DNA from: a virus
Virus record (IMG/VR): IMGVR_UViG_3300027127_000207
Coordinates: 1 to 21,919 of that record
Reading direction: 5' to 3' (one strand)
Length of the DNA: 21,919 bases
Shown here: piece after piece, positions 149-21,919 of the stretch
Layout of the letters: each line of letters opens with the position of its first letter
How positions within the stretch are numbered: position 1 is the stretch's first letter
The notes under the pieces: generated by a model
Told to the model about the DNA's origin: nothing
The model's database searches: none
What the model saw: the letters and a program-made list of their open reading frames with translations, nothing else
Translations under genes and position numbers: made by a program

Positions 149-1747
149 ATGGAATACTCTCCTAAAGACTTAGTGTTTGCCGAACAGGGTCGGCAGAAGC
201 TTATTAGTGGCATTGAGAAGATGGCACAAGCTGTTAAAAGTACATTGGGCCCTTCGGGCAATACAGTTCTTATTGAGTCCCCCCAACATACGCATGGCAT
301 TACCGTCACCAAGGATGGCGTGACGGTGGCCAAGGCGGTTGACTTGTTGGACCCTGTAGAGAACCTTGCGGTTAAGATGATGAAGGAGGCGGCAGATAAG
401 ACAGCCACCCTTGCAGGCGATGGCACAACGACTGCAATCGTGCTCACCGAGGCGTTAGTCTTAGGTGGTCTTGAGCTGATGAAGCCACACCATAACCGAA
501 CAGAGGTGCTACGCAATATGGTGGACATAAGCAACAAGGTGGTGGATAAGCTGCGCAGGCGCAGCAAGAAGGTATCGGCAAGCATGCTGACGGACATTGC
601 CTCCATCTCGGCTAATAATGACCGTGAGATTGGTCGAATCATTGCTGAGGTGTATAAGGACGTGGGGCGTAGTGGTATTGTCACTGTAGAGCGTTCACAA
701 ACGGCTGACACCTATGCCGAGACGACCAAGGGGTTGAAGATTGACAGGGGGTATTTGAGCCCACTCTTTATCAACGACCAATCAAGAGACGAGTGTGTCT
801 TTGAGGACGTGATGATACTTGTGGCTGACATTGAGATAAGCAATATCCTACAGATAGAATCGGTTCTCAAGCCGATTATACAGGAAGGCAAGAAGTTACT
901 CGTAGTGGCACCATGCCACGTGAACGTGGTCAATACCTTTGCTGCGAATGTTATGAAGAACAACCTGAAGATTTGTGCGGTGCAGCCTCCGAGCTTTGGG
1001 TATAAGCAGCATGAGCTGATGCAGGACTTAGCAATTAGTGTCGGGGCTACTTACTTCAGCGAGAAGACCGGTGACGACTTGAGCCAAATCAACTACGCTG
1101 ACCTCGGCCATGCGGCCAAGGTAGTGGTGTCAAAAGACTCTACAATCATCCTGAAGAGTGACCTCAAGTATGACCAAGCCAAGATTGACGACAGGGTTGC
1201 ACAGCTTTGGGAGGCGCACAGGGTTGCCAAGAAGAAGACTGACAAGGACCATCTGCTGTCCCGGATAGCTTCGCTAACAGGTGGGATAGGGGTGATTTAC
1301 GTAGGTGGTAACACTGACCTTGAGCAGAAAGAGTTGTACGATAGGGTTGACGATGCGGTCCATGCGGTGCGTTCGGCATTGGAAGAAGGCATATTGCCCG
1401 GTGGTGGTAAAGCCCTCTATGAGGTTGAGGTGTTTGATATCGTTGGCGAAATTGCCTCCGAGGAGCAGGACATAGCAGCGCAGATACTGCAGAGCGCACT
1501 GAAAGCGCCACTTGAGCAGATACTGACAAATGCAGGGCTGAATGCGTCAGAGCACTATACGCTTGAGGTAGGTGAGGGTATGGGGTTAAACGTAAAGACC
1601 CGTGAGATGGGGGACCTCATCCGAATGGGTGTGATTGACCCACTTAAAGTGACACGTAGTGCACTTCAAAATGCCATCAGCGTAGCAACAACCATATTAT
1701 CCACAAACGCCATCATCACAATGGCACGCTCATACGAAACCAAATGA
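149..1747 (+). CDS. groEL: phage-encoded chaperonin GroEL (Hsp60, group I)
   Basis: This 532-residue protein is a full-length group I chaperonin, which forms a ring that refolds proteins by ATP hydrolysis in the cytoplasm. The equatorial ATP site is intact: TLGPSG at 32-37, TKDG with Asp56 (E. coli Asp52), GDGTTT with Asp91 (E. coli Asp87) and DDAVHAVRSALEEG with Asp402 (E. coli Asp398). It is slightly shorter than bacterial GroEL (about 548) and lacks the C-terminal Gly-Gly-Met tail, ending ARSYETK. The frame is open further upstream, but the ATG at 149 matches the family N-terminus and follows an A-rich leader also seen at 3847 and 19437. The stop overlaps the next ATG (ATGA). The gene is more GC-rich than the fibre genes. 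It probably folds phage capsid, tail or fibre proteins. Confidence 0.96.
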   Translation: MEYSPKDLVFAEQGRQKLISGIEKMAQAVKSTLGPSGNTVLIESPQHTHGITVTKDGVTVAKAVDLLDPVENLAVKMMKEAADKTATLAGDGTTTAIVLTEALVLGGLELMKPHHNRTEVLRNMVDISNKVVDKLRRRSKKVSASMLTDIASISANNDREIGRIIAEVYKDVGRSGIVTVERSQTADTYAETTKGLKIDRGYLSPLFINDQSRDECVFEDVMILVADIEISNILQIESVLKPIIQEGKKLLVVAPCHVNVVNTFAANVMKNNLKICAVQPPSFGYKQHELMQDLAISVGATYFSEKTGDDLSQINYADLGHAAKVVVSKDSTIILKSDLKYDQAKIDDRVAQLWEAHRVAKKKTDKDHLLSRIASLTGGIGVIYVGGNTDLEQKELYDRVDDAVHAVRSALEEGILPGGGKALYEVEVFDIVGEIASEEQDIAAQILQSALKAPLEQILTNAGLNASEHYTLEVGEGMGLNVKTREMGDLIRMGVIDPLKVTRSALQNAISVATTILSTNAIITMARSYETK

Positions 1748-1938
1748 CAGTAGGCCAAGAGAACGTAGCGTATCCTATGAGTTGCGACAGATGCAACTAT
1801 CAGTGGCTTGCTGTGGTTGAGGCGAGTAAAATTGAATGGAGTGAGTTCCACGTGGAACTTCACCATGGTGACTTATTAGAGTGTCCTGAGTGTGGACATT
1901 GGACAGAAATAAACAGAGACGATGAAAGCTATAGGTAA
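1744..1938 (+). CDS. small zinc-ribbon protein between groEL and groES
   Basis: This 64-residue protein carries two Cys pairs, CDRC at 14-17 and CPEC at 47-50, the layout of a zinc ribbon with a 29-residue connector. The middle is mildly hydrophobic and acidic (WLAVVEASKIEW), and a Trp-rich pattern follows the knuckles. The ATG overlaps the groEL stop (ATGA) and the end overlaps groES by 17 bases, so the three genes are translationally coupled. I do not recognise a named family. It could be a nucleic-acid-binding protein or a small adaptor for the chaperonin; the location, not the sequence, suggests the latter. Confidence 0.75.
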   Translation: MTVGQENVAYPMSCDRCNYQWLAVVEASKIEWSEFHVELHHGDLLECPECGHWTEINRDDESYR

Positions 1939-2179
1939 AAACATTGTGATTCGCAACATTGACGAGGAAATCAAAACGGCCTCCGGCCTTGTGTTATCGG
2001 GTGAAGATACCAACCAACTACGCTATAAGCGTGGCAAGGTGGTGACTCCGGGTACTGAGGTCAAATCAATCTCTGAGGGAGATGAAATTTATTATGACCG
2101 GGCTCAGAGTTACACCATGATTATCCATGATGAGCAGTTCACTATCATTCAGGAACGTGATGTAGTTCTTGTCCTGTAA
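1922..2179 (+). CDS. groES: GroES-like co-chaperonin (Cpn10)
   Basis: This 85-residue protein has the Cpn10 pattern in order: an N-terminal beta strand (GKNIVIRNI), a mobile loop ending in SGLVLS (E. coli GGIVLT, the GroEL-contacting tripeptide), GKVVTPG (E. coli GeVvAvG), EGDEIYYD (GDkVLf) and a C-terminal strand with QERDVVLVL (kesDIlaI). It would cap the GroEL encoded 170 bases upstream. It is shorter than bacterial GroES (about 95), and the loop connecting GKVV to GDEI is reduced. The order is groEL first, groES last, the reverse of the usual bacterial groESL operon. Its 3' end overlaps the convergent minus-strand gene by 35 bases. Confidence 0.85.
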   Translation: MKAIGKNIVIRNIDEEIKTASGLVLSGEDTNQLRYKRGKVVTPGTEVKSISEGDEIYYDRAQSYTMIIHDEQFTIIQERDVVLVL

Positions 2180-5725: not shown

Positions 5726-6180
5726 GTGACAAGAAGAAGTTTAAAGACACCAAGGTTGGTCAGTTTCTTAAGACCAAAGCGCCCAATATCTTGGCGAAAG
5801 TTGGTGACTTGCTTCCTGACTCAGGTGTTTTGGGTATTGTAAAGAATTTAGTTGATAAATCTCCCGAACTTAGCCCTGCTGATAAAGCTGCAGCGCATGA
5901 ACAACTTAAAGAGCTTTATGCGTTAGAGGTGCAGGATAGGGAGTCTGCACGCACACGTGAGGTTGAAATAGCGAAGACGGGTAAGTTTGATTTTTTATTT
6001 AACCTTACCGGTCTTATTGGATTAGGCGTTTTTGTTTTCATTGTTTACGCCATTGTCTATCTTGATATACCAAAAGAAAATAAAGAATTATTTATACACT
6101 TAATAGGAATTGCGGAGGGTGTTGTGCTTTCAATCTTTGGATATTATTTCGGTAGTGCAGTGAAGAAAAATACTCAGTAA
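5722..6180 (+). CDS. holin-like membrane protein (GTA holin 3TM-like)
   Basis: The 152-residue protein has a soluble amphipathic N-terminal half, a charged helix (DRESARTREVEIAKTGKFD, 72-90) and two hydrophobic spans (91-114 and 123-145). The end of the second span, IFGYYFGS, followed by a basic tail, is characteristic of proteins annotated as holin of 3TMs for gene-transfer-agent release. It directly follows the endolysin with a 4-base overlap, supporting a pore-forming role that lets the M15 enzyme reach the wall. Only two clear spans are visible, so the topology is N-out/C-out or N-in/C-in. Its TAA overlaps the fibre ATG by one base (TAATG). Confidence 0.8.
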   Translation: MSDKKKFKDTKVGQFLKTKAPNILAKVGDLLPDSGVLGIVKNLVDKSPELSPADKAAAHEQLKELYALEVQDRESARTREVEIAKTGKFDFLFNLTGLIGLGVFVFIVYAIVYLDIPKENKELFIHLIGIAEGVVLSIFGYYFGSAVKKNTQ

Positions 6181-9100
6181 TGGCACGGATAAGTACATAC
6201 CCCATAATAGTTACTCCTACGCTGAACGATTTATTAATCGGTACAGACGTAGAGAACTTGAACAATACGAAGAATTTTACCGTTGCCGAGCTTGGCAATA
6301 CTATAGGTCAATTCTATGTTCCTTATGTTGGCGCTACAGGCAACGTAAATCTTGGAGCATTTAGTATAGAGGCAGCAGCATTCATTGTTCCGGGCGGTCT
6401 TGCTTCACAATTTGTGAAGGCTGATGGCTCTTTAGACAGTACTGCATACACTCCTGAGACAAGAACGCTTACAATTAATGGTACAACCTACGACTTATCG
6501 GCTGATAGGACATGGGATTTGCCTACAATTGACACGCTTACTACGCTTGGAACGGGTGGAGCCGCCACATATATTGGCAAAACGCTCAATATCCCAATCT
6601 ATCAGTCGCAGGGAGACTATATTACGCAGCTTTCGGGTGAGGCAACAGCTCTTGGCCCGGGCAATGCTACGATTACCCTCGACAATATGGCCGTTATAAC
6701 CAAGGTATTGACGGGATTAAACATCACAGGTGGTACTGTAGTGTCTACAGACAGCATAGTTACAGCTTTTGGTAAGGTACAGAACCAAATTAATAGCCTT
6801 GTTGGTGGCGTTCAATACCAAGGTACATGGGATGCAGCTACCAACACACCCTTTTTGCAGAGTTCTGTAGGCACAAAGGGCTACTACTACGTAGTAAGTG
6901 TACCGGGTAACACCAACTTGAACGGAGTTACTGATTGGAGGCTTGGTGATTGGGCTATTTTTGATGGTACAGCATGGAGTAAGGTTGACAATACTGACGC
7001 AGTTGTAAGCGTAAACGGATACACAGGTGCGGTTGTGCTTACTTACAGTGATGTAGGTGCGCCTCCGTCTACAAGAACCCTTACTATTAATGGAACAGGG
7101 TATGATTTGAGTGCAGATAGGTCATGGACAGTGGGTGATGTACGTACAGATGGTTCTTATGCTAACCCTGCGTGGATAACTTCACTTGGTTGGAGTAAAA
7201 TTACCAACACACCAACTACAATTGCAGGTTATGGCATCACTGATGCAGTTGATGATAGCACTACTCTGACTATAAACGGTGTTAGCTACGACCTTTCAGC
7301 AAACAGGACGTGGAATGTAGGAACAGTTACGAGCATTGCTACAAATGGCCCTCTTACAGGTGGCACAATCACGGGTTCGGGCACAATCGGTATAACTCAA
7401 GCAGGTCCAACATCAGATGGATACCTTAGTGCTGCTGATTGGAATGAGTTTAATACAAAACTAAACGACCTTAGCGCAACAGCCCCTATTACTTATGTAG
7501 GAAATGTTATAGGTATTACACAGTCAGGCGCAAGTTCAAATGGATATTTGAGTTCAACAGATTGGAACACGTTTAACAACAAGCAAGATGCGCTTGTTAA
7601 CCCGGTTACAGGTACAGGTACAGCTTATGTACTACCAATGTGGAGCGGTGCTACAACACTTACCAATAGCCCACTGTCTTATGTAGCTGATACGTTTACT
7701 TTTCAGTATAATAGTGCCACAGGTGGTGTGGTTACGTTTACAAATGGCGGCTTAACGTCTTATGCGTACACTATTACAATGAACAACTTTGGTTCTCCAA
7801 GGTCAACTGTTCATAGTTACACTGATGGTGTAGTATCTCAAGTGATTGGGAGCACACAGGTATCAAAAATATTCGCTAATGGAAACACTATTATTGGTGA
7901 TGGTATTAACGACACAGGATATAAACTTACTGTAGAGGGAAATCTTTATATTGAGACGATTATAAACGCAACTACTGACACAGATAAATTTTTAGTATCT
8001 GATTCAGGGGTTATTAAGTACAGGACAGGTAGTGAGGTGCTCGGTGATATTGGTGCTGTACCTACAACAAGACAGCTCACTATCAATGGGACCTCCTACG
8101 ACTTGTCCGCAGACAGAACATGGAGCGTAGGTACAGTTACTTCAGTAGATATGAGTGTGCCTGCAGGGTTTACCATTTCCGGAAACCCTGTTACAGGCGC
8201 AGGAACTCTTGCGGTAGCATTTGCTTCAGGGTATTCTTTACCTACTAACGCAAGTCAGGGTACTTGGGACACTGCTTACAATAGAAGTCTTACTTCTGCT
8301 GCAGTTACCGGTACAGTAACAAAAACATTAACACTTAATCAGCAGGATGGAGGAACCATCACTGCATCATGGACTGATTACGATACCGCCCCGGTGACAA
8401 GTGTGTTCGGAAGGACAGGGGCCGTTATAGCTCAGTCAGGAGATTACTCAACGACCCTTGTTACCGAGGGCACTAATTTATATTTTACAGACGCACGTTC
8501 ACGTGCGGCTATCAGCCTTACTACCGTGGGTAGTAGTGGCCCTGCAACATACAGCAATCTTACGGGGGTATTTAATATCCCTAATTATGGGTCTGCTTTG
8601 ACAGGATACGTTCCATATACCGGGGCTACGCAAGACGTAAATATCGGTACGTATGGGCTTATTACTGATTTTGTTAGATATAATCTATCGAGCAGCAATA
8701 TTCCTTCTGCTGAAGGAGTAATGTGGTGGGATAATATTGAGGGAACAATTAGACTTTCTCTCAAAGGAAATACATATAATCTTCCAATTGGAGAGAGTGT
8801 TGTAGCGAGAGTGCGCAATAGCACCGGAGGTAATCTATCAAGAACAGCTTATCAAGCTGTAAGGGTTGCAGGTGCGCAAGGACAAAGACTTGCTGTTGCA
8901 TTGGCTCAAGCTAACAACGACCCTAATAGCGCATCTACACTTGGATTGGTATGTGAAGACATATCAACTAATCAGGAAGGATTTATTGTAAACATCGGTC
9001 AGATTGTTAACGTAGATACTACAGGTAGCCTTCAAGGAGAGACTTGGCTTGATGGTAATGTATTATATCTGAGTCCAACTATACCGGGAGCTCTTACTAA

Positions 9101-12002
9101 TGTTAAACCTGCTGCGCCTCAACATACCGTAATCATCGGATATGTAGAATATGCGCATGCTAATAACGGTAAGATATATGTTAAGGTAGATAACGGATAT
9201 GAGCTCGAGGAGCTACATGACGTTGCTCCAACTCCTTATGTAAATAATGGAGTGCTTTATCGTGACACAGCAACAAACCTTTGGAAGAGTGCAACTATTG
9301 CTACTCTTCTTGGATACACTCCGGCTAATCAGGCTATTACTCTTACCATTAATGGTACTACGTATGACCTTAGCGCCAATAGAACGTGGAACGTAGGTAC
9401 AGTTACTTCAATTACTGCAGGCTCAGGTCTTGATGGTGGTACTATTACTACATCAGGCACTATCAGCCACGCAGATACTTCTTCTCAAACAAGTGTTGAC
9501 AATACGGGTGGATTCGTTATTCAAGATGTAACTCTTGATACATTTGGTCATGTAACAGGTCTTACAAGCACTGACTTTGACTTGAGGTATGTGCCACTTA
9601 CTCGTACACTAAACGGCCTTGCGCTATCTTCAAACCAAACATTTGCTACCGGAACAACAGGTACTGACTTTAATATTGTTAGTGCAGGTACTGTTCATAC
9701 GTTCAATATCCCTGATGCGTCAGCTTCAGCAAGAGGATTTGTGAACGCTACGACTCAGACAATAGGTGGTGCAAAAACATTTACGGCTTCCCCTACTGTT
9801 CCTTCTTTGTATTTGACAAATATGGGAGCAGGAAGCGGTGCGCTTTACTACAATACATTAGAGAGCAGACTTACGCTTGCCAACTACAATGTAGGCGGTA
9901 AGTTGATGTTCGAGGTGAATGGTGGTAACTATACCATGTCATTAAATGCTGACTTAAGTGTTCAGCTTCTTGGCTACACTACCAATGGAATACTGAAGAC
10001 TTCAGGTTCAAATGGTACGCTGATAGTAGATACCACAGCTTATACGCCTCAGTCAAGAACGCTTACTATCAATGGCACTGCTTATGATTTAAGCGCTGAC
10101 AGGTCATGGTCTGTTGGTACAGTGACAAGCGTAAACATGAGTGTTCCTACGGGATTTGTTATAGGTGGTAATCCTGTAACGTCAAGCGGTACACTTGCTT
10201 TGACTTTTGCTTCAGGATATAGCCTTCCAACAAATGCTAAGCAGGCCAATTGGGATACAGCATACGATAATCGAATTACATCTCTGACGACTACAGGTAC
10301 GAGTGGTGCAGCTACGTTGGTATCCAACGTGCTTAACATCCCTCAGTACCAAGCTCAGGGCAACTATATTACTTCACTGACGGGTGAAGCCACAGCGAGT
10401 GGACCGGGCGCAGCAAGTGTCACGCTCAGTAACTCTGCTGTTACGGGCAAAGTGCTTACAGGTCTTACAGTGACCGGCACAACAATCTCTGCTACAGATA
10501 GTATTCTTAGCGCTTTAGGAAAGCTTCAGGGTCAAGTGAATGACCTTGTAGGTGGCTTGCAGTATCAAGGTACTTGGAACGCATCAACAAATACTCCTAC
10601 TATCACTTCAGGTGTCGGCACCGATGGATACTTTTACATTGTAAATGTAGCAGGTAACACGACTATTGACGGTGTTAGTGGTTGGCAGGTAGGGGATTGG
10701 ATAGTTTTTCATGGGTCTGCTTGGCAGAAGGTGGACAATACTGAGTCTGTTACATCTGTAAATGGATTTACAGGTGCTGTAGTTCTTACTACTTCAAACA
10801 TTTCTGAAGGCACGAACCTTTATTTTACAGATAGCAGGGCTCGTTCTGCGATAAGTTTAACAACTACCGGAAACAGTGGTGCTGCTACTTACAGCAATTT
10901 AACAGGTGTTCTTAATGTTCCTCAGTATTCACTTGCAGGGCTTGGTGGTGTGCCTGATACTCGTCAGCTTACTATCAATGGTACTGCGTACGACCTTAGC
11001 GCTAATAGGACATGGTCGGTTGGTACTGTAACAAGTATTGCTACTACAGGTCCTATTACAGGAGGAACGATTACAGGTAGTGGAACAATTGGAATTACTC
11101 AAGCAACTACTTCTTCTAATGGTTATCTCAGCTCAACAGATTGGAATACATTTAATAATAAGCAAGCTGCCATCACACTTACTACTACAGGTAATAGTGG
11201 CGCAGCGACATTTGTAGGCGCTACACTTAATGTTCCTAATTATACGTTAGGTGGGTTGGGTGGTGTTCCTGAAACAAGAACAATAACTATCAACGGCACA
11301 AGTTATGACCTGAGTGCTAACCGCACTTGGTCAGTAGGTACTGTTACCTCAATAACATTTAGCGGCCCGTTAACGGGCGGCACTATCACAGGCTCAGGTA
11401 CAGTTGGGATACTACAAGCAAGCGGTTCACAGAACGGATATTTGAGTTCAACTGATTGGACTACGTTCAATAACAAGCAGAATGCTATTTCAGTTACAGC
11501 TCCTATTACGCTTGTGGGTAGCACAATTGCTATCACACAGGCAGGTGCAAGCTCAAATGGCTATCTGTCGAGTACTGATTGGAATACGTTCAACAATAAG
11601 CAAGGAACCATAACACTGACGACCACGGGTACGAGTGGAGCGGCTACGTTTGGAGCAGGAAATATTTTAAATATACCTATCTATCAGAGCGTGCTGACCA
11701 ATCCTGTTACCGGTACGGGTACGACAAATTATTTGTCGAAGTGGAATGGTACATCTTCGCTGACTGATAGTTTGCTTTATGATAGTGGTTCAGCGATAGG
11801 ATTGGGTACAGCAACTGTTAATGCTGCAGCATTATTCCAAATGGATAGTACTACAAGAGGTTTATTGCCTCCACGTATGACACAGGCTCAGCGTCAGGCA
11901 ATAGCAACTGTCCCTGAAGGGTTGATAGTTTATCAGACAAATGGTGTAATTGGTTTGTATATTTACGCTAACGGAACTTGGCGTTCACTCACAATGGTAT
12001 AA
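6180..12002 (+). CDS. giant modular tail fibre / adhesin (1940 aa)
   Basis: The protein is a mosaic of repeated beta modules. Its N-terminus (LLIGTDVENLNNTKNFTVAEL) recurs in the 78-aa protein at 19189 and is probably the attachment segment. Eight copies of LTINGTxYDLSA(D/N)RxW occur, most followed by xVGTVTSI. Five copies of NGYLSSTDWNTFNNKQ are seen, plus a duplicated 145-residue unit (YQGTW...NTP, GDW, VDNT, VNGxTGAVVLT) and two copies of EGTNLYFTDxRxRxAISLTT. The C-terminus (STTRGLLPPRMTQAQRQAI, then EGLIVYQT) is the ending I know from Bacteroidota phage fibres. It should bind host surface structures. Composition is Thr/Gly/Ser-rich with few charges and essentially no Cys. At 5.8 kb it is the largest gene in the window. 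No frameshift or stop interrupts it. Confidence 0.9.
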   Translation: MARISTYPIIVTPTLNDLLIGTDVENLNNTKNFTVAELGNTIGQFYVPYVGATGNVNLGAFSIEAAAFIVPGGLASQFVKADGSLDSTAYTPETRTLTINGTTYDLSADRTWDLPTIDTLTTLGTGGAATYIGKTLNIPIYQSQGDYITQLSGEATALGPGNATITLDNMAVITKVLTGLNITGGTVVSTDSIVTAFGKVQNQINSLVGGVQYQGTWDAATNTPFLQSSVGTKGYYYVVSVPGNTNLNGVTDWRLGDWAIFDGTAWSKVDNTDAVVSVNGYTGAVVLTYSDVGAPPSTRTLTINGTGYDLSADRSWTVGDVRTDGSYANPAWITSLGWSKITNTPTTIAGYGITDAVDDSTTLTINGVSYDLSANRTWNVGTVTSIATNGPLTGGTITGSGTIGITQAGPTSDGYLSAADWNEFNTKLNDLSATAPITYVGNVIGITQSGASSNGYLSSTDWNTFNNKQDALVNPVTGTGTAYVLPMWSGATTLTNSPLSYVADTFTFQYNSATGGVVTFTNGGLTSYAYTITMNNFGSPRSTVHSYTDGVVSQVIGSTQVSKIFANGNTIIGDGINDTGYKLTVEGNLYIETIINATTDTDKFLVSDSGVIKYRTGSEVLGDIGAVPTTRQLTINGTSYDLSADRTWSVGTVTSVDMSVPAGFTISGNPVTGAGTLAVAFASGYSLPTNASQGTWDTAYNRSLTSAAVTGTVTKTLTLNQQDGGTITASWTDYDTAPVTSVFGRTGAVIAQSGDYSTTLVTEGTNLYFTDARSRAAISLTTVGSSGPATYSNLTGVFNIPNYGSALTGYVPYTGATQDVNIGTYGLITDFVRYNLSSSNIPSAEGVMWWDNIEGTIRLSLKGNTYNLPIGESVVARVRNSTGGNLSRTAYQAVRVAGAQGQRLAVALAQANNDPNSASTLGLVCEDISTNQEGFIVNIGQIVNVDTTGSLQGETWLDGNVLYLSPTIPGALTNVKPAAPQHTVIIGYVEYAHANNGKIYVKVDNGYELEELHDVAPTPYVNNGVLYRDTATNLWKSATIATLLGYTPANQAITLTINGTTYDLSANRTWNVGTVTSITAGSGLDGGTITTSGTISHADTSSQTSVDNTGGFVIQDVTLDTFGHVTGLTSTDFDLRYVPLTRTLNGLALSSNQTFATGTTGTDFNIVSAGTVHTFNIPDASASARGFVNATTQTIGGAKTFTASPTVPSLYLTNMGAGSGALYYNTLESRLTLANYNVGGKLMFEVNGGNYTMSLNADLSVQLLGYTTNGILKTSGSNGTLIVDTTAYTPQSRTLTINGTAYDLSADRSWSVGTVTSVNMSVPTGFVIGGNPVTSSGTLALTFASGYSLPTNAKQANWDTAYDNRITSLTTTGTSGAATLVSNVLNIPQYQAQGNYITSLTGEATASGPGAASVTLSNSAVTGKVLTGLTVTGTTISATDSILSALGKLQGQVNDLVGGLQYQGTWNASTNTPTITSGVGTDGYFYIVNVAGNTTIDGVSGWQVGDWIVFHGSAWQKVDNTESVTSVNGFTGAVVLTTSNISEGTNLYFTDSRARSAISLTTTGNSGAATYSNLTGVLNVPQYSLAGLGGVPDTRQLTINGTAYDLSANRTWSVGTVTSIATTGPITGGTITGSGTIGITQATTSSNGYLSSTDWNTFNNKQAAITLTTTGNSGAATFVGATLNVPNYTLGGLGGVPETRTITINGTSYDLSANRTWSVGTVTSITFSGPLTGGTITGSGTVGILQASGSQNGYLSSTDWTTFNNKQNAISVTAPITLVGSTIAITQAGASSNGYLSSTDWNTFNNKQGTITLTTTGTSGAATFGAGNILNIPIYQSVLTNPVTGTGTTNYLSKWNGTSSLTDSLLYDSGSAIGLGTATVNAAALFQMDSTTRGLLPPRMTQAQRQAIATVPEGLIVYQTNGVIGLYIYANGTWRSLTMV
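6618..7055 (+). repeat. first copy of the duplicated 145-residue fibre module
   Basis: This stretch encodes YITQLSGEATALGPG through VVLTYSDVG and is homologous over its whole length to 10365-10806 (YITSLTGEATASGPG through VVLTTSNIS). Shared landmarks are KVLTGL, VGGxQYQGTW, NTP, VGTxGYxYxV, GDWxxF, VDNT and VNGxTGAVVLT. I take the module as a carbohydrate- or receptor-binding unit of Bacteroidota phage fibres; that role is inference. Confidence 0.8.
10365..10806 (+). repeat. second copy of the duplicated 145-residue fibre module
   Basis: This is the homologue of 6618-7055. It is followed directly by the EGTNLYFTDSRARSAISLTT unit, whose sister copy (near 8466-8590) instead follows a different segment. 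The modules have therefore been shuffled, not copied as one block. Confidence 0.8.
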
Positions 12003-12005
12003 GAT

Positions 12006-15000
12006 ATGTCAAATTTAGCAACGATAACGAATAACATATTAGCAGACAGTGGTATTGATGACTTGAACGTGGTTGTTACTACGGGCTCGTATGCTAATCC
12101 TGCTTGGATAACTTCTTTAGCTTGGTCTAAGATTACAGGTGCTCCTTTAGGTGATTACTTGCCTTTGGCAGGTGGTACAATGACAGGTAATATTAATTGG
12201 GCTCAGACTGATAGGGGTATTACATGGAATTTTAATACTGACGGTGCTTATATTAAGTTCTATAATACCGGAGACGGTGATACTGATTCAAGGTTAGAGT
12301 TTGCTACTATTGATAATAACAACGAATACTTCAGATGGGGACATGTTCCTTCGGGTGGGTCTTTCTATGAGTCAATGAAGCTTGTACCTAATAGCAGTGG
12401 TAATGCTCAATTAATTGTCTCAGGTAGTGTAGGTATTGGAACAACATCTCCTTCGTATGTATTTCATGCTGTTTCATCAAATACAACAATAGGTGCATTT
12501 AGGAATAGTGGGGCAGCTAATGGTCAGTTATTAGTAGGTAATACTGCAGGTGATTTAGCATTAAGAATATTAGCAAGTGGAGATGCTATAATGTTTTCAG
12601 ACGTTTCAAAGTATTTAGCGTTTGGTACTAATGGCGGTTCTGAAAGAATGCGCATATCTTCCGCAGGAGCTATCAAGTTTAACACTTATGGTTCAGGAAC
12701 CAATACAGGTACAGTAGCTTATAACCTTGCCGTAGATGCAAGTGGAAACGTAATTGAAACAGCAGGAGGCGTTGTTGATGGTAGTGGTACAGCTAACTAT
12801 ATTCCTAAATGGAGTGACCCAAATACACTTACCAATAGTTTAATTTATGATAATGGTACCAATGTAGCTATTGGTACAACATCACCCATTAATACAGGAT
12901 TAACTGTTCAGACAAGTGGTGCTGCGTTTAGCACTACTGCTACCAAAAACTCAAACATGTATGGGTTGACATTAGTTTCTACGACTAATGAAAACACAAT
13001 GAGTGGAGTTTGGTTTGGTAGTGGAGGTGGTGTGCATTGGAGTGGTATTGCAGGTTCAAGAAGTAACTATACTGTTGATTGGTCTACCCATCTATCTTTT
13101 TATACTCACATAGCTAACACTGTTAATATAACAGAAGCTACTGAGAAAATGCGTATAACAGGGGATGGTAACGTGGGTATAGGGGCTACAAACCCTGATA
13201 GTAAAGTTGTTTCAAATTATGGAACTCTTACTTCATTTAATAATAATGATATAAGGACTACAACAGCTTTGCTTCTTACTGCATCAGACCCCGGCACAAC
13301 ATCAAGTAGTAATGGGGTAACTCTTGCATTTAGACCTATTATCAATAGGGGTGCTGCTGCTACAATAACAGTATTAAACGATAGTGTCAATAAAGAAGGC
13401 AGTGGTGTAATGATATTCAGCAATGGTGGTGGTGTTTATCCTTCTTCTGTTACTGAAGCGATGAGGATTAGTAATTCTCAAAATATATTGATTGGTATTG
13501 GAACAGATGCAGGTTATAGGTTAGACGTTGCAGGTACGGTGAGGGTACAATCTTCTTTCAATGGATTAGGTTATGGGTCTTTTGGAAGAACTGTAGATGG
13601 TACATATAGACTTATTATTCAAGGTGTAGGAACATCATCTTCTAATTATGGGTTATCGGTTACAGATAGTGGAGGAAATCAAAATCTATGGGTAAGAGAT
13701 GATGGTGTTGTTTATTTGAGAGGTAATGTCGGCATTGGAACGAGCAGCCCTTCATATAAATTACAAAGTAACGCTTCAAGTTATCAGTTAGCATTAATCA
13801 ATCCCGGATATGGAGGGTGGTTATATAATGTTGGAACTGATTTGAGTATGGGATTTGTTCTTGAAGGAACAGGAGAGAAGATGCGACTTACAAGTAGTGG
13901 TGACCTTTTAATAGGAGATACAACTGCAAGTGCTAATCTTTGGGTAAAAAGTAGTGCATCCGGAAATGCTTTTGGAGCAAGAAATACGAATGCTACATTT
14001 GCCGCAACAGTTGGGTTTTTTGGAGCAGATAGAAACACATCAAATAATACTTTTTATTACATTGATTGTTATAACTACGGTAATTCTACTTATAGATTTA
14101 GAGTAGCTGATAGTGGTAATGTTACATCAGCAGGTTCAGCTACATTTGCAGGTACTTTTTTTGGTGGTAATAATATTGAATTAGTAAATGCAGGTGGTCC
14201 TTATATATTAGTTGGAGAAGGAACAGGAGCAAGTCAATACGGAGTTGTAGATTGGGATGCAACTAATAATCGTTTAAGAATAGCTACACAACCTTATGCT
14301 TTTGGAGCAAATAGTGGACAAATAACATTAACTACAGCAGGTAATGTAGGAATTGGAACCCTTTCTCCTGCAACAAAACTTGAAGTTAGAAGTAATGTTG
14401 CAGGATTAGAAGCTGCAAGATTTTCAGATAGCAACTATGCTGATTTAGCAATAGGATTCCCGACTGCAGGCGTTGCATCGATAGATTTCGAATATGGTGC
14501 TGCAGGTGCTTTAGCGTTCAGAAGTGGGACAGGTAAGAATGAGCGCATGCGCATCACATCGGGCGGTTTTGTTGGGATAGGTGAAAGTTCTCCAATTAGT
14601 AAACTTACTGTTACAGACAGCAATCAATTTGTTGCACGTTTTTACAATAGTTCCGCCAATCAACTTACAACAGTTCAGGTGGCAAATCAAGCTCAGTCAA
14701 CTGCAGGTGTAAATACGGCTGCTGCAACATTTGAATTAGTTGGTAAAGCGGGATCGTCTACACATGGTAGACACGCTTGGATTGGTGCAGAAGGTGTAGC
14801 AGCAGAAACATTTAGAACTAAACTTTTATTTAAACTAAGAGGCGAGTCTAATTCGGGATACACTTGGGCAGGCGTTACTGAAGCTCCAACAATTTTAACA
14901 CTTGATGGTAATGGACTTGTGGGTATTGTAACAAGTAGCCCTGCATCTTTTTTGCAAATTGGTACTTATGCAAGTGCAAGTAAATATATTGACAGCTCTA

Positions 15001-16925
15001 CCTTGCCAACTACGCCAAGTGGTTATTTAATAACATTAACTCCTCCAAGTACTACAGGATATTATGGAGGAGGTATTGGATGGTCAGAAGGTACAAATAC
15101 AGCAGCAAGTATAAATGTTTACGATGATGGTGCAGGTGGAGCTCTCGGTATGGTATTTGCAACGGGTAGCAATAGCTCATTATCTGAAAATATGCGTATT
15201 ACTTCAGGTGGTAATATAGGTATTGGAACGAGCAGCCCTTCTTTTAAATTAGATGTAAATGGAACAACAAGATTCCAAGGTATAGTTAGATTTAAAGTAG
15301 ATGCTTGGAATTTAAGTGATGATGGATTTAATCGTTTTTATTTTGCTTCCGGAGGAAGAACATATTTTGGATCAGGCAATGGATACGAATGGAGGAATAA
15401 CTCTGATTCTTCTATAATGACTTTAACAAATGTAGGAGTTTTATCAGTAAATCCTTCTGCTGTTTTAGGAAGAGTAAATATTGGATACAATTTTTATATA
15501 GAAAACGACCAAAGCCCTGAGATAACATCTTTTGTAAATTCATCAGGCTCATCAATATTCAGATGGATGCAAGGTATTACTCCTTCTGAAAGGATGAGAT
15601 TGAATCCTCAAGGAAATTTGGGGATTGGAACAAGTGCTCCCGGATACAAACTTGAAGTGAATGGTGGATCGGTAGGGAATAATATTGCCCGATTTACTAC
15701 AGGTTCAGCAGGAGGTGGAACAAGAGGGATGAATATATATTCAAATGATTCCTACGTAAAATTGCAGGTAACAGATAATGCAGGTAGTGCTTCAACATGG
15801 GCTCATTTAGTCCTTAATCCTGATGCAGGTTATGTAGGAATTGGCACAACATCACCATCATACTCATTAGACGTAAATGGTGCTGCAAGATTTTTAAGTT
15901 TTGGAATTGTTCAAGCATCAGGCAATGCAGATGTTCCAAATATTACGTTTACAAATAATGGTGGCGCATATACTTGGGGAATTGTAGGGGCGCTTCTTCA
16001 AGGAGACGGTGATGGAGCTTTGTATTTTAAGACAAAAATTGGTGGTTCTGTAACTGAAAAGATGAGGATTGCATCAAACGGAAACGTAGCAATTGGAACA
16101 ACTTCAGTAAACGCAGCAGCATTACTTCATCTTTCTTCATCTGCTTCCGAGACTACATTGCTTTTAGAAAATACAGGAACAGGTGGCGATAGATGGATGA
16201 TTAGGTCTACAAATAACTCTTCAGGATGTTGTGGTAGTAGCGGAAATTCTAACTTAACTTTTTATGATGATAGCACGGGTGTATCTCCTTTAGTGTTACA
16301 AAGAGGGGGGTCAGTTGGAATAGGAACTTTAAGTCCCACTACAAAACTTCATGTATATGACTCTACTCAAGACAGATTCAATATAAGAATATCTTCTACT
16401 ATAGCAAACAATGTAAATAAATATATGGGTATTGGATTCTCAGGAGAAGAATCTAATACAAAAGGTGCTATATTCTTTCAAAGTTTAGGACAGAGTTATT
16501 CAAGGGGTAAAATGATTTTTGCCTTAAATAATGTTTCAGACCAATCAAGCGCTACACCTTCAAATGCTGTAGTTACTTTAGACGTAACAAGTTCTTATGC
16601 AATGTCTGTTGCCGGAACTATATATGCTACAGGTGATGTCATTGCTTATTCTGATGCTTCTGTAAAAACTAATATTAGACCAATTGAGAATGTTCTTTCA
16701 AGGATTTCTGATTCAAGAGGTGTTCTTTATGACAGAACAGATAGAGATGATAAAGATAATATTGGATTTATTGCTCAAGAATTGGAGAAGCAGTTTCCTG
16801 AATTAGTGAGTACAAGCACCGATGGAACTAAAGGTGTTAAATACCAAAATGCAGTAGCAGTTCTTTTTGAAGCTATCAAAGAACAGCAGAAACAAATTGA
16901 TGAACTTAAAAAACGTCAAGCATAA
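12006..16925 (+). CDS. tail fibre/tailspike with C-terminal S74 intramolecular chaperone (1639 aa)
   Basis: The N-terminus contains SYANPAWITSLAWSKITGAP, a unit also found in the upstream fibre at 7155, then LPLAGGTMTGN, a common phage fibre motif. The body holds about thirteen GIGTxSPxxxLxV repeats, often followed by NGTxRF, spaced by variable segments and by ERMRIxSxG-type motifs; these form a trimeric beta shaft. Residues 1549-1639 are a peptidase S74 domain, which aids trimerisation and then cuts itself off: Ser1549 of SDASVKTNI and Lys1554 match the Ser/Lys dyad of endosialidase. A C-terminal coiled coil (KEQQKQIDELKKRQ) follows. The gene is AT-rich and favours TTA for Leu, unlike the preceding fibre. 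It starts 3 bases after the upstream stop. Confidence 0.9.
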   Translation: MSNLATITNNILADSGIDDLNVVVTTGSYANPAWITSLAWSKITGAPLGDYLPLAGGTMTGNINWAQTDRGITWNFNTDGAYIKFYNTGDGDTDSRLEFATIDNNNEYFRWGHVPSGGSFYESMKLVPNSSGNAQLIVSGSVGIGTTSPSYVFHAVSSNTTIGAFRNSGAANGQLLVGNTAGDLALRILASGDAIMFSDVSKYLAFGTNGGSERMRISSAGAIKFNTYGSGTNTGTVAYNLAVDASGNVIETAGGVVDGSGTANYIPKWSDPNTLTNSLIYDNGTNVAIGTTSPINTGLTVQTSGAAFSTTATKNSNMYGLTLVSTTNENTMSGVWFGSGGGVHWSGIAGSRSNYTVDWSTHLSFYTHIANTVNITEATEKMRITGDGNVGIGATNPDSKVVSNYGTLTSFNNNDIRTTTALLLTASDPGTTSSSNGVTLAFRPIINRGAAATITVLNDSVNKEGSGVMIFSNGGGVYPSSVTEAMRISNSQNILIGIGTDAGYRLDVAGTVRVQSSFNGLGYGSFGRTVDGTYRLIIQGVGTSSSNYGLSVTDSGGNQNLWVRDDGVVYLRGNVGIGTSSPSYKLQSNASSYQLALINPGYGGWLYNVGTDLSMGFVLEGTGEKMRLTSSGDLLIGDTTASANLWVKSSASGNAFGARNTNATFAATVGFFGADRNTSNNTFYYIDCYNYGNSTYRFRVADSGNVTSAGSATFAGTFFGGNNIELVNAGGPYILVGEGTGASQYGVVDWDATNNRLRIATQPYAFGANSGQITLTTAGNVGIGTLSPATKLEVRSNVAGLEAARFSDSNYADLAIGFPTAGVASIDFEYGAAGALAFRSGTGKNERMRITSGGFVGIGESSPISKLTVTDSNQFVARFYNSSANQLTTVQVANQAQSTAGVNTAAATFELVGKAGSSTHGRHAWIGAEGVAAETFRTKLLFKLRGESNSGYTWAGVTEAPTILTLDGNGLVGIVTSSPASFLQIGTYASASKYIDSSTLPTTPSGYLITLTPPSTTGYYGGGIGWSEGTNTAASINVYDDGAGGALGMVFATGSNSSLSENMRITSGGNIGIGTSSPSFKLDVNGTTRFQGIVRFKVDAWNLSDDGFNRFYFASGGRTYFGSGNGYEWRNNSDSSIMTLTNVGVLSVNPSAVLGRVNIGYNFYIENDQSPEITSFVNSSGSSIFRWMQGITPSERMRLNPQGNLGIGTSAPGYKLEVNGGSVGNNIARFTTGSAGGGTRGMNIYSNDSYVKLQVTDNAGSASTWAHLVLNPDAGYVGIGTTSPSYSLDVNGAARFLSFGIVQASGNADVPNITFTNNGGAYTWGIVGALLQGDGDGALYFKTKIGGSVTEKMRIASNGNVAIGTTSVNAAALLHLSSSASETTLLLENTGTGGDRWMIRSTNNSSGCCGSSGNSNLTFYDDSTGVSPLVLQRGGSVGIGTLSPTTKLHVYDSTQDRFNIRISSTIANNVNKYMGIGFSGEESNTKGAIFFQSLGQSYSRGKMIFALNNVSDQSSATPSNAVVTLDVTSSYAMSVAGTIYATGDVIAYSDASVKTNIRPIENVLSRISDSRGVLYDRTDRDDKDNIGFIAQELEKQFPELVSTSTDGTKGVKYQNAVAVLFEAIKEQQKQIDELKKRQA
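12423..16360 (+). repeat. about thirteen GIGTxSP coding repeats in the S74 fibre
   Basis: Units such as VGIGTTSPSYVFHAV, VGIGTSSPSYKLQSN, IGIGTSSPSFKLDVNGTTRF and VGIGTTSPSYSLDVNGAARF recur through the fibre body. Some have drifted (VGIGATNP, IGIGTDAG, VGIVTSSP, VAIGTTSVN). Two copies share an exact 20-base stretch (13734-13753 and 15222-15241), a possible substrate for homologous recombination that would delete or swap about 1.5 kb in frame. Confidence 0.8.
16650..16922 (+). other. S74 (endosialidase-type) self-cleaving chaperone domain
   Basis: The domain begins with SDASVKTNI (cleavage expected just before Ser1549). It contains DNIGFIAQELEKQFPELV, the strand-helix element diagnostic of the family, then KGVKYQNAVAVLFEAIKEQQ. 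The 91-residue fragment would be released after the trimer folds. Confidence 0.88.
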
Positions 16926-19455: not shown

Positions 19456-19683
19456 ATGGACATCAGGAAAATATCTATAGGACCTGACTACAAGGGTAGT
19501 GCAATGCACTATATTGTAGGACATAAAGTTCTTGGAGAGACAAACTCAATTCACCTTATTAAGTTCGAGCCTGAAACGGGAGATGTAAAGATTTATATCA
19601 TCAACGAAAAAGAGGAGGTGATGCTATGGAAGTCTTTCAATCAAAACATGCCTGTGTCCATTGAATTTAATATCGACTATTAA
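19456..19683 (+). CDS. conserved small phage protein (75 aa)
   Basis: The sequence MDIRKISIGPDYKGSAMHYI followed by VGHKVLGETNSIHLIKF, KIYIINEKEEVMLWKSF and MPVSIEFNIDY resembles a small protein that I remember from Flavobacteria and marine phages. The pattern is a beta-rich single domain, ending in a conserved NMPVSIEYNI. No catalytic motif is visible. It opens the operon that also holds the GroES-like protein, oxygenase and terminase, and its TAA overlaps the next ATG by one base (TAATG). The dedicated promoter suggests high expression. Function is unknown. Confidence 0.72.
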   Translation: MDIRKISIGPDYKGSAMHYIVGHKVLGETNSIHLIKFEPETGDVKIYIINEKEEVMLWKSFNQNMPVSIEFNIDY

Positions 19684-20237
19684 TGCAATCCCCATTTGAC
19701 TTCATTGTTACAGGTAAACGATATAATAATACAAAAGAGATTGGCGGCATAGAGCTTATCGTTAATACCTCAGAAGAAGACCATAAATTTTCCAACCGGT
19801 ATGCCGAGGTGGTAGAAGTGCCACGTGGATATGATGGGCCAATTCAAAAAGGTGACACGTTACTCGTTCACCACAACGTATTTAAGTTCTACAACGACAT
19901 CAAGGGTAAGCGCAAGAGTGGTCGTAGCTTCTTTAAAGATGACATCTTCTTTGTAGAGCCTGACCAATTTTTTATGTACAAGCGTGACGGCAAGTGGCAC
20001 ACGTATAGCCGTTTTTGCTTTGTGAGACCAATTCCTGCTGTTGACTCTTATATCAAGAAACCATTTACCAATGAACCGCTCATGGGTATTATGGTCTATC
20101 CAAACGCCTACCTCGAGACTCAAGGAGTCCGAGCAGGCGATACTGTATGTTTTAAGCCTGACAGTGAATATGAGTTTGATGTCGATGGAGAAAAGCTATA
20201 CCGAATATTTGACCACCAAATAACCATGACGCTATGA
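19683..20237 (+). CDS. double GroES-like (Cpn10-fold) protein
   Basis: This 184-residue protein appears to hold two Cpn10-like halves. The first (about 7-100) runs FIVTGKRYNNTKEIGGIELI (loop and GGIxL as in GroES GGIVL), then YAEVVEVPRG, KGDTLLVHHNVFKF (GDkVLf) and PDQFFMYKRDG. The second (about 107-184) runs FCFVRPIP, MGIMVYPN, GVRAGDTVCFKPDSEYEF and DVDGEKLYRIFDHQITMTL (geeylilre.DI). I remember similar proteins from marine phages, some annotated as co-chaperonin; this is not verified. If correct, the window encodes two different GroES-type proteins. It could be a second cap for GroEL, or an unrelated beta-barrel with a structural role. Stop and start overlap its neighbours by one and four bases. 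Confidence 0.5.
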   Translation: MQSPFDFIVTGKRYNNTKEIGGIELIVNTSEEDHKFSNRYAEVVEVPRGYDGPIQKGDTLLVHHNVFKFYNDIKGKRKSGRSFFKDDIFFVEPDQFFMYKRDGKWHTYSRFCFVRPIPAVDSYIKKPFTNEPLMGIMVYPNAYLETQGVRAGDTVCFKPDSEYEFDVDGEKLYRIFDHQITMTL

Positions 20238-20722
20238 ACCTAATGGTATCGGACAACGTCCTACAGAACCCACACGAGTACGTTTCTGACATACTCAAAA
20301 ACGAATTTGTTGACATCTACGATGGTGTCAATACATTTCAGAACATTCAACCTCGTGACCATTCCGATGAGTTCACCCAAATGGTTATTGACTTTATTGG
20401 GTCAAACTATGAGGTATCTTGGAACTTCATACGCAAGTCTCCAAAGGGGCAGAAGGAGCCAAACTTCATCCACACTGATGAGATGATGGGCGACATTACC
20501 GCTATCCTGTACTTGAGCCGTCAGCATCCTGAAGAGGATGGGACTACCATTTACGGGGAAGACGGCAAGCCTTCATGTGTGATATATTCTAAGTTTAACC
20601 GGATGCTAATTTTTGATTCTAAGCTTCCGCATAGCAGAAATATATTTGAAAACTTTGGGCAAGACGATTCAAGTCGTCTCGTTCAAGTTGTATTTTTAAA
20701 GGAGAAAGATGAAAGATATTAA
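20234..20722 (+). CDS. 2-oxoglutarate/Fe(II)-dependent oxygenase
   Basis: This 162-residue enzyme has the facial triad of the superfamily: His80 and Asp82 in FIHTDEMMG, and His133 in LPHSRN, with Arg148 in SRLVQVVFL as the 2-oxoglutarate-binding arginine. Strand TAILYLSRQHPEEDGTTIYG lies between, as in prolyl 4-hydroxylase-like and DUF6445-type proteins. It would oxidise a substrate such as a protein side chain or nucleic acid using O2 and 2-oxoglutarate. The substrate cannot be read from the sequence. It lies in one operon with the GroES-like protein (4-base ATGA overlap) and terminase genes (14-base overlap), suggesting modification of a virion or packaging protein, or of DNA. Confidence 0.85.
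   Translation: MNLMVSDNVLQNPHEYVSDILKNEFVDIYDGVNTFQNIQPRDHSDEFTQMVIDFIGSNYEVSWNFIRKSPKGQKEPNFIHTDEMMGDITAILYLSRQHPEEDGTTIYGEDGKPSCVIYSKFNRMLIFDSKLPHSRNIFENFGQDDSSRLVQVVFLKEKDERY
20698..20704 (+). promoter_or_regulatory. Shine-Dalgarno-like sequence for the 20709 gene
   Basis: AAAGGAG lies 4 bases before the ATG at 20709, inside the end of the oxygenase gene. Most other genes in the window lack such a site and rely on coupling or A-rich leaders, so this one helps to fix the start. Confidence 0.5.
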
Positions 20723-20993
20723 GTCAAGGATTGTTGAAGCAGGCTATCAAGCAGTCGAGCAGCTTATCAAAGTGGCAAAGGAAGATATTATCAAGCCTGA
20801 CCCTGATGATGAGCTTGCTGCAGACAGGCTTAAGAATGCTGCAGCAACAAAGAAGCTTGCCATCTTTGATGCTTTTGAGATTCTAAATAAGATTGAGGCA
20901 GAGAGGGAAGCGCTTGAAATGCTTGAGAAAGGAATAAATAGAACAGATACAAAACAAGGATTTGCAGAACGAAGGTCTATATCGGGTCGTTAA
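20709..20993 (+). CDS. probable small terminase-like protein (94 aa)
   Basis: The 94-residue protein is all helical and charged: MKDIKSRIVEAGYQAVEQLI, then DELAADRLKNAAATKKLAIF, DAFEILNKIEAEREALEML and a basic end ERRSISGR. Its position directly upstream of the large terminase gene, overlapping it by 32 bases in another frame, is where a small terminase (DNA recognition for packaging) is usually found. The sequence AADRLKNAAATKKLAIFDAFEILxxIE resembles a family I remember from marine phages next to terminase. It is shorter than typical TerS and no helix-turn-helix is evident, so the assignment rests on context. Confidence 0.6.
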   Translation: MKDIKSRIVEAGYQAVEQLIKVAKEDIIKPDPDDELAADRLKNAAATKKLAIFDAFEILNKIEAEREALEMLEKGINRTDTKQGFAERRSISGR

Positions 20994-21919
20994 GGACTAT
21001 GTGCCTCAGAATGCCATATCAAAAAAGAACGGAATACGCTCTTGGAAGTACGGGTATAATGAGCAGTACGATATGGTGGTCATCTCCAAGACAGGACAAA
21101 TTGGAGAGATTATCAATATCGCAGGGCTGATTATTGCCCTACCTCTTGCACCAAAAGAGTGTCTTCAAAGACACTCCACCAAGAGTGAACAATATTGGGA
21201 AAGGTTTGACCTACCCAAAGAGCTTGGCAAAATTCAATCTATCTTTCAATGGAACGAAATGCCTACTGAGTTTAAGGACAGATGGGTGGACTATATTGAG
21301 GATGAGTTTAACCGTAGGGAGAATGGCTTTTGGTTTATGAACAATGGGGTTCCCACTTATGTACCCGGGTCTCACTACATGTACTTACAATGGTCAAGTA
21401 TTGATATAGGGTACCCTGACTTCAGGGAGGCGAACAGAATATTTTACATTTTTTGGGAGGCATGCAAGGCTGACCCTCGTAGCTTCGGGATGATATATCT
21501 GAAGATAAGACGTTCAGGGTTTTCCTTTATGTCTTCGTCAGAGTGCGTGAACATAGCCACGCTTGCCCGTGACTCAAGGGTTGGTATCCTGTCTAAGACG
21601 GGTGCTGATGCCAAGAAAATGTTCACAGATAAGGTTGTCCCTATCAATAGCAGGCTTCCGTTCTTTTTTCGTCCAATTATGGATGGTATGGACAAGCCTA
21701 AGACCGAGCTTGCTTATCGAGTACCTGCTTCAAAGATTACCAAGAAGAATATGAGCAACGCTTCAGAGAGTGAAGTAGACGGATTGGACACCACAATAGA
21801 TTGGAAGAATACAGAAGATAACTCGTATGACGGTGAAAAGCTTTTGTTTCTTGCGCACGATGAGAGCGCAAAGTGGCTGAAGCCAAATAATATCCTGAAT
21901 AATTGGAGGGTAACCAAGA
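20962..21919 (+). CDS. terL: terminase large subunit, N-terminal part (cut by window end)
   Basis: At least 319 codons of the ATP-driven packaging motor are present; the nuclease half is beyond the window. Conserved segments include FQWNEMPTEFKDRWVDYIED, ENGFWFMNNGVPTYVPGSHY, YPDFREANRIFYIFWEACKA, then a divergent Walker A, KIRRSGFSF (21502-21528), and a Walker B, LLFLAHDES, with Asp and Glu at 21859-21864. There is also a FFFRPIMDGMDKPKTEL stretch, which I recall from marine phage terminases. There is no ATG between the upstream in-frame TAA (20935) and Asp-rich residues; TTG at 20962 is my choice, ATA at 20938 or 20947 and GTG at 21001 are alternatives. The first ATG, at 21073, would cut conserved sequence. 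Confidence 0.85.
   Translation, partial: MQNEGLYRVVKDYVPQNAISKKNGIRSWKYGYNEQYDMVVISKTGQIGEIINIAGLIIALPLAPKECLQRHSTKSEQYWERFDLPKELGKIQSIFQWNEMPTEFKDRWVDYIEDEFNRRENGFWFMNNGVPTYVPGSHYMYLQWSSIDIGYPDFREANRIFYIFWEACKADPRSFGMIYLKIRRSGFSFMSSSECVNIATLARDSRVGILSKTGADAKKMFTDKVVPINSRLPFFFRPIMDGMDKPKTELAYRVPASKITKKNMSNASESEVDGLDTTIDWKNTEDNSYDGEKLLFLAHDESAKWLKPNNILNNWRVTK

Follow-up and report, generated by a model that had tools for sequence, protein, structure and literature searches.

Does a phage that carries both groEL and groES possess a folding machine of its own, or do these genes represent a captured host operon, spare folding capacity, or lids for the chaperonin of the host? The question is raised by a 21,919-base virus fragment (the window, meaning the whole stretch analysed), near the start of which three open reading frames overlap end to start on the plus strand, exactly as the original prediction had placed them: groEL (149-1747; 532 aa), a zinc-ribbon ORF (1744-1938; 64 aa, four cysteines) and groES (1922-2179; 85 aa). 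The groEL stop and the zinc-ribbon start share the letters ATGA, giving a 4-nt overlap, and the zinc-ribbon ORF overlaps groES by 17 nt. Beyond them lie a convergent 171-aa gene on the minus strand (2145-2660), small genes, an M15 endolysin, two very large fibre-like proteins and the 5' part of the terminase large subunit gene, which runs off the window (20992-21919, plus strand; phrog_6681, E=1.8e-65). This layout agrees in outline with that of MW202828, a circular podovirus genome of 60.85 kb, and many relatives are contigs of 60-65 kb; the window is a fragment of a podovirus genome of about 60-65 kb. The convergent gene (phrog_17028; labelled 'repressor protein' in MW202828), for which tblastn returned a match in 82 of the 83 loci compared, is a conserved neighbour that lies outside the chaperonin; it adjoins groEL-groES in nearly all relatives and is a possible regulator. 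The two fibre-like proteins (6180-12002 and 12006-16925; 1940 and 1639 aa) contain internal repeats, and the second ends in a C-terminal Peptidase_S74 intramolecular chaperone.

The identity of both chaperonin genes is clear. The GroEL protein matches Pfam PF00118 (Cpn60_TCP1; E=1.3e-55) over residues 26-525 and phrog_5725 (E=7.6e-129), and the Cpn60_TCP1 domain spans the whole protein, as it does in a group I chaperonin. A predicted model of middling confidence (pLDDT 70.5) gave a Z of 31.5 in fold comparison, with a single-ring Hsp60 ranked on top, albeit by Z differences below 1 that amount to ties. The site of ATP hydrolysis is intact, as had been claimed: the GDGTTT motif is present, and D56, D91 and D402, which correspond to E. 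coli D52, D87 and D398, are invariant across all 82 family members. The reported lack of a Gly-Met tail also held, the C-terminus reading ...MARSYETK with no GGM. The short GroES, likewise correctly recognised, matches PF00166 (E=3.9e-11, above the curated cut-off) and PHROGs (E=5e-14), and belongs with the Cpn10 proteins by its conserved T-x-SG-x-x-L pattern and its mobile loop, which reads SGLVLSG in the window and follows the pattern SG[LI][VI]LSG. Its predicted model has the GroES fold, the low-confidence part being the mobile loop, and matches T4 gp31 in the GroEL-gp31 complex with a Z of 9.3. Low dN/dS values against near relatives (0.07-0.10 for groEL, 0.03-0.14 for groES) indicate that both genes are constrained and maintained.

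The zinc-ribbon protein, which the original prediction had included in a groEL - zinc ribbon - groES cassette, fared differently. The ORF exists, overlaps both of its neighbours and is kept at 78-90% identity in near relatives, as a working third component might be; its own matches to zinc ribbons are sub-cut-off only. However, only about a dozen of 80 relatives have a zinc ribbon related to it; most of the others have unrelated ORFs or nothing in its place, and in some of them groEL and groES adjoin directly, at -4 to 11 nt. We therefore rejected it as a component: the ORF is optional cargo, and a working role in the machine is very improbable. Other relatives (L022, L026, L032, L034, L042, L082 and similar) carry 2.6-3.5 kb inserted between groEL and groES; the inserts include ORFs of about 293-304 aa and 178-183 aa on the opposite strand, and in some of these relatives groES has a promoter-like motif of its own.

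The arrangement of the two chaperonin genes themselves is constant. In a survey of the 80 nearest IMG/VR relatives and MW202828, groES lay 3' of groEL on the same strand in every case, at spacings of -4 to +3478 nt, so that both genes are present with groEL first in 81 of 81 loci, whereas all 34 bacterial loci checked have the order groES-groEL. Pairwise distances for GroEL and GroES are also the most closely correlated of the gene pairs compared (r=0.81, against 0.39-0.73 for the others). On the GroEL tree, where deeper joins are uncertain and branches long, the groEL-groES order maps to one change, and its carriers (the window lineage, elemo, Panino and related contigs; 33 rows, including L084, a short contig in which no groES was found) fall on one side of a branch with support of 95/97, and thus form one clade of phage GroELs. 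This agrees with the link between gene order and GroEL phylogeny reported by Marine et al. (2017, ISME J 11:2479), as far as that study is quoted in PMC9611531; the groEL carriers among its virioplankton clades were reportedly inferred to have genomes over 70 kb, compared with about 60-65 kb here. Thus, the reversed order stressed by the original prediction is real but no surprise, as it defines a phage GroEL clade and is already known in phages: the records of the cultured Flavobacterium elemo phages annotate the pair openly, and both genes are reported for Panino. In the Maribacter phage Panino record we found that an ORF annotated as hypothetical (L090:4703-4969) is GroES (PF00166, E=7.4e-9), lying 3' of groEL with a 44-aa ORF between them.

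Expression from one promoter, as had been proposed, is borne out by a Bacteroidota-type element, TTTG-N19-TACTTTTG, on the plus strand at 79-109, about 40 nt 5' of groEL, which matches the Bacteroidota -33/-7 element exactly (0.47 such matches expected per window) and recurs in relatives. Of 81 loci that could be scored (the relatives and the window), 26 have the full motif within 120 nt 5' of groEL, against a background of 0.6%, and 77 have the -7 element there, against a background of 9%. By the same motif, none of 68 groES genes close to groEL has a promoter of its own, compared with 4 of 14 distant ones. Because of the promoter type, and because Flavobacterium and Maribacter are hosts to phages from sister lineages, the host of the window phage is likely a member of the Bacteroidota. 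Contigs carrying this GroEL in metagenome-assembled genomes (Chthoniobacterales, Aliivibrio, TMED88, Bacteroidetes) are short, and we treated them as mis-binned phage and left them out of the host assignment.

Given that group I chaperonin ancestry is cellular, and that the best PDB match is a reconstructed ancestor of the Fibrobacteres-Chlorobi-Bacteroidetes, the pair might be thought to derive from recent transduction of a host groE operon. Near identity with host genes, the outcome that the original prediction had set against itself, was not what we found: the window GroEL shares 36-39% identity with the GroELs of Bacteroidota in our comparison and 38% with that of E. coli, and its lineage forms a clade of its own on a long stem. 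With the opposite gene order in bacteria and the missing GGM tail pointing the same way, recent transduction has next to no probability, and identity and tree together rule it out. At least 463 IMG/VR stretches carry the groEL of this lineage, and groEL is found more widely in many unrelated phages (262 GenBank records). One GroEL match, 'Acinetobacter phage MD-2021a', proved on inspection of its neighbours to be a fragment of a bacterial chromosome.

The surface on which GroES would dock differs from that of cellular GroELs in a consistent manner. L234, V263 and V264 are present in 33 of 33 bacteria, whereas the phage family has E or D at 234, K at 238, A at 264 and L or M at 203 in 82 of 82 members and A at 263 in 80 of 82; the substitutions relative to bacteria are therefore L234 to E/D, E238 to K, V264 to A, V263 to A and Y203 to L/M. 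Positional entropy in the groove is nevertheless as low as in bacteria (0.22 versus 0.21 bits). By sequence, the GroES-binding groove is fixed in the lineage and chemically unlike that of every bacterial GroEL sampled. The lid has changed as well: the aligned members of the GroES family lack the residues that would match the E. coli roof loop, which forms the roof beta-hairpin. T4 gp31 is likewise without roof loops (PMC6318259), and the hairpin is thus not a strict requirement for a Cpn10/GroES protein.

At the interface between rings the canonical contacts of the double ring have largely gone. The K105-E434/D435 salt bridge is present in 33 of 33 bacteria and 7 of 82 phages, the R452-E461 bridge in 33 of 33 and 2 of 82, and a hydrophobic residue at position 464 in 33 of 33 and 1 of 82; the window has E105, E434/E435, E452, N461 and E464. 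At these few positions, chosen from the literature, entropy in the phages is 1.99 bits, where the protein as a whole averages 0.64; the corresponding bacterial values are 0.92 and 0.81. Such contacts are not required for membership of group I, since the single-ring mitochondrial Hsp60 is also without the same two salt bridges (PMC5575113). An engineered single-ring form of E. coli GroEL is functional only when GroES binding is weakened (PMC5575113), and V464E is among the changes in the single-ring reconstructed ancestor ACI (PMC12696368). We therefore predict, from the loss of cross-ring contacts, that the phage GroEL is probably a single ring or a ring-splitting machine whose contact with the lid is retuned and weaker. 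It may instead be a remodelled double ring: the GroEL of phage EL, despite being only 22% identical to GroEL, forms a double ring that splits with ATP (PMC7185714). The window resembles mitochondrial Hsp60/Hsp10 and E. coli SR1 in the absence of the K105-D435 and R452-E461 bridges and in changes at 452, 461 and 464, but differs from them in that its single-ring state is a prediction and that its GroES contact residues are also changed.

A second co-chaperonin is encoded at the other end of the window. The 184-aa product of 19683-20237 (plus strand) matches phrog_13932 'co-chaperonin GroES' (E=2e-25) over residues 1-175, a full-length match that places it in this family. In comparisons based on broader alignments, its C-terminal half matched the GroES profile with E=8e-12, and its N-terminal half aligned with Cpn10 in register, with a loop-like GGIEL motif, at a weak E=0.0018; against shuffled GroES the N-terminal half reached an AUC of 0.88, with no clean separation from the shuffled controls, and hhalign of the halves using narrow window-lineage alignments gave no signal. 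A C-terminal Cpn10 domain is thus certain, and the N-terminal half is possibly a second Cpn10 domain in the manner of Cpn20. At least 593 IMG/VR stretches encode a relative of this protein, and the elemo, Cellulophaga and Panino phage records label theirs cpn10 or GroES; in each of the five relatives that we inspected, the large co-chaperonin gene immediately precedes the terminase gene or lies close to it. Of 30 groEL-bearing records, 24 have it, among them every one of the 18 that reach 59.8 kb; the six without it are all shorter than this and may be fragments. In Cellulophaga phage phi18:3 (L231, NC_021794) we found the large co-chaperonin and no GroEL, and this lid, by analogy with gp31, probably acts on the host GroEL ring, since the phage carries none. 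By gene content, then, the phage of the window would have two different lids available to one ring, GroES and this protein of about 184 aa. Between the second co-chaperonin and terminase lies a 162-aa protein (20234-20722) with an HTD...H pattern, which resembles a 2OG-Fe(II) oxygenase and has mixed PHROGs matches (minor coat protein, endonuclease V).

These observations probably describe a dedicated, phage-encoded group I chaperonin system belonging to a lineage of podoviruses of Bacteroidota. The reading that suits the GroEL and GroES pair best is that of a dedicated folding machine of the phage, because the pair is self-contained, co-transcribed, specific to its lineage (with a GroEL about 38% identical to those of bacteria) and always co-inherited, so that this part of the original prediction stands; that its clients are phage proteins is our inference. 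In the mechanism that we propose, the single Bacteroidota-type promoter would drive production of the GroEL ring first and of the phage's own GroES lid second. ATP binding would raise the apical domains, the SG[LI][VI]LSG loop of the phage GroES would cap the ring, and the resulting open-topped cage would enclose phage clients, of which capsid and other virion proteins seem the likeliest. The ring probably works singly or splits into single rings, and it is probably the retuned groove, and not a cue passed between rings, that sets the release of GroES. The second co-chaperonin, made from the terminase-portal operon, would probably serve as a lid on this same ring when certain virion proteins are folded, or else form part of a mixed lid with GroES.

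Two other accounts of the same genes take the lids or the ring in a different direction. Both GroES and the second co-chaperonin could be gp31-like lids for the GroEL of the host, leaving the phage GroEL as a lidless open ring like those of EL, OBP and AR9. The hydrophobic tripeptide of the GroES loop is indeed canonical, the larger co-chaperonin of phi18:3 must be served by host GroEL, and the rings of giant phages, which are also phage-encoded, group I-like, and single or splitting, need no co-chaperonin (PMC9598537), although the AR9 protein and a homologue from a Pseudomonas giant phage are only about 25% identical to the window GroEL. We nevertheless find this account improbable, because GroEL and GroES are inseparable in every locus surveyed and are the most correlated in their divergence, and because a groove as conserved as that of bacteria would be odd if its lid were unused. 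Alternatively, the pair may simply add folding capacity for host and phage proteins alike, favouring no particular client and working by the usual double-ring GroE mechanism; the intact ATPase and lid would allow this, and so would the presence of groEL in many unrelated phages. Lineage-fixed changes in the groove, the lid roof and the ring interface argue instead for specialisation, and a fixed locus with conserved neighbours speaks for a core gene and against exchangeable cargo, which makes auxiliary use unlikely. A more elaborate form of the dedicated system would be a chloroplast-like machine, in which a single GroEL ring carries a mixed lid of GroES and a tandem Cpn20-like co-chaperonin, forming a roofless asymmetric cage for virion proteins. 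The phage recalls chloroplast Cpn60/Cpn10/Cpn20, where a 10-kDa lid and a lid-like protein of about 20 kDa serve one ring family (PMC5780408, PMC4242682), but Cpn10 homology is the only sequence link between Cpn20 and the second co-chaperonin, in which the N-terminal Cpn10 domain is putative, and we regard this version as unlikely.

Among known phages, the closest likeness to a dedicated ring with its own lid is Podoviridae sp. ctfjg026 (MW202828.1) from Manatee Spring, whose GroEL, GroES and second co-chaperonin are 62%, 64% and 75% identical to those of the window; it shares the gene order and the convergent neighbour, but has no zinc ribbon between the genes, and its record lists the second co-chaperonin simply as hypothetical. 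Flavobacterium phages vB_FspP_elemo (Elemovirus) and Maribacter phage Panino are also podoviruses of Bacteroidota with groEL then groES, a roofless GroES and a large co-chaperonin gene adjoining terminase, yet their GroELs are only about 35-36% identical to that of the window and they belong to different genera, with genomes of 60 kb (elemo) and 77 kb (Panino). T4 shares the roofless lid in gp31 but uses the GroEL of its host, whereas the phage of the window brings its own ring and a shorter lid. What is new is the combination of a rewired groove, a roofless lid, lost ring-ring contacts and a terminase-linked second co-chaperonin, conserved across a large environmental phage lineage; the original prediction had noted none of these four features.

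Phage chaperonins are common, and have hardly been studied where the ring comes with its own lid. The lineage described here is widespread and the chaperonin is fixed in its phages, and the changes in sequence suggest a GroEL/GroES system that is naturally single-ringed and has a second lid. If this is so, these phages would show in nature whether weaker binding of the lid can stand in for signalling between rings, for which the cases so far are an engineered E. coli GroEL and, by inference, mitochondria.
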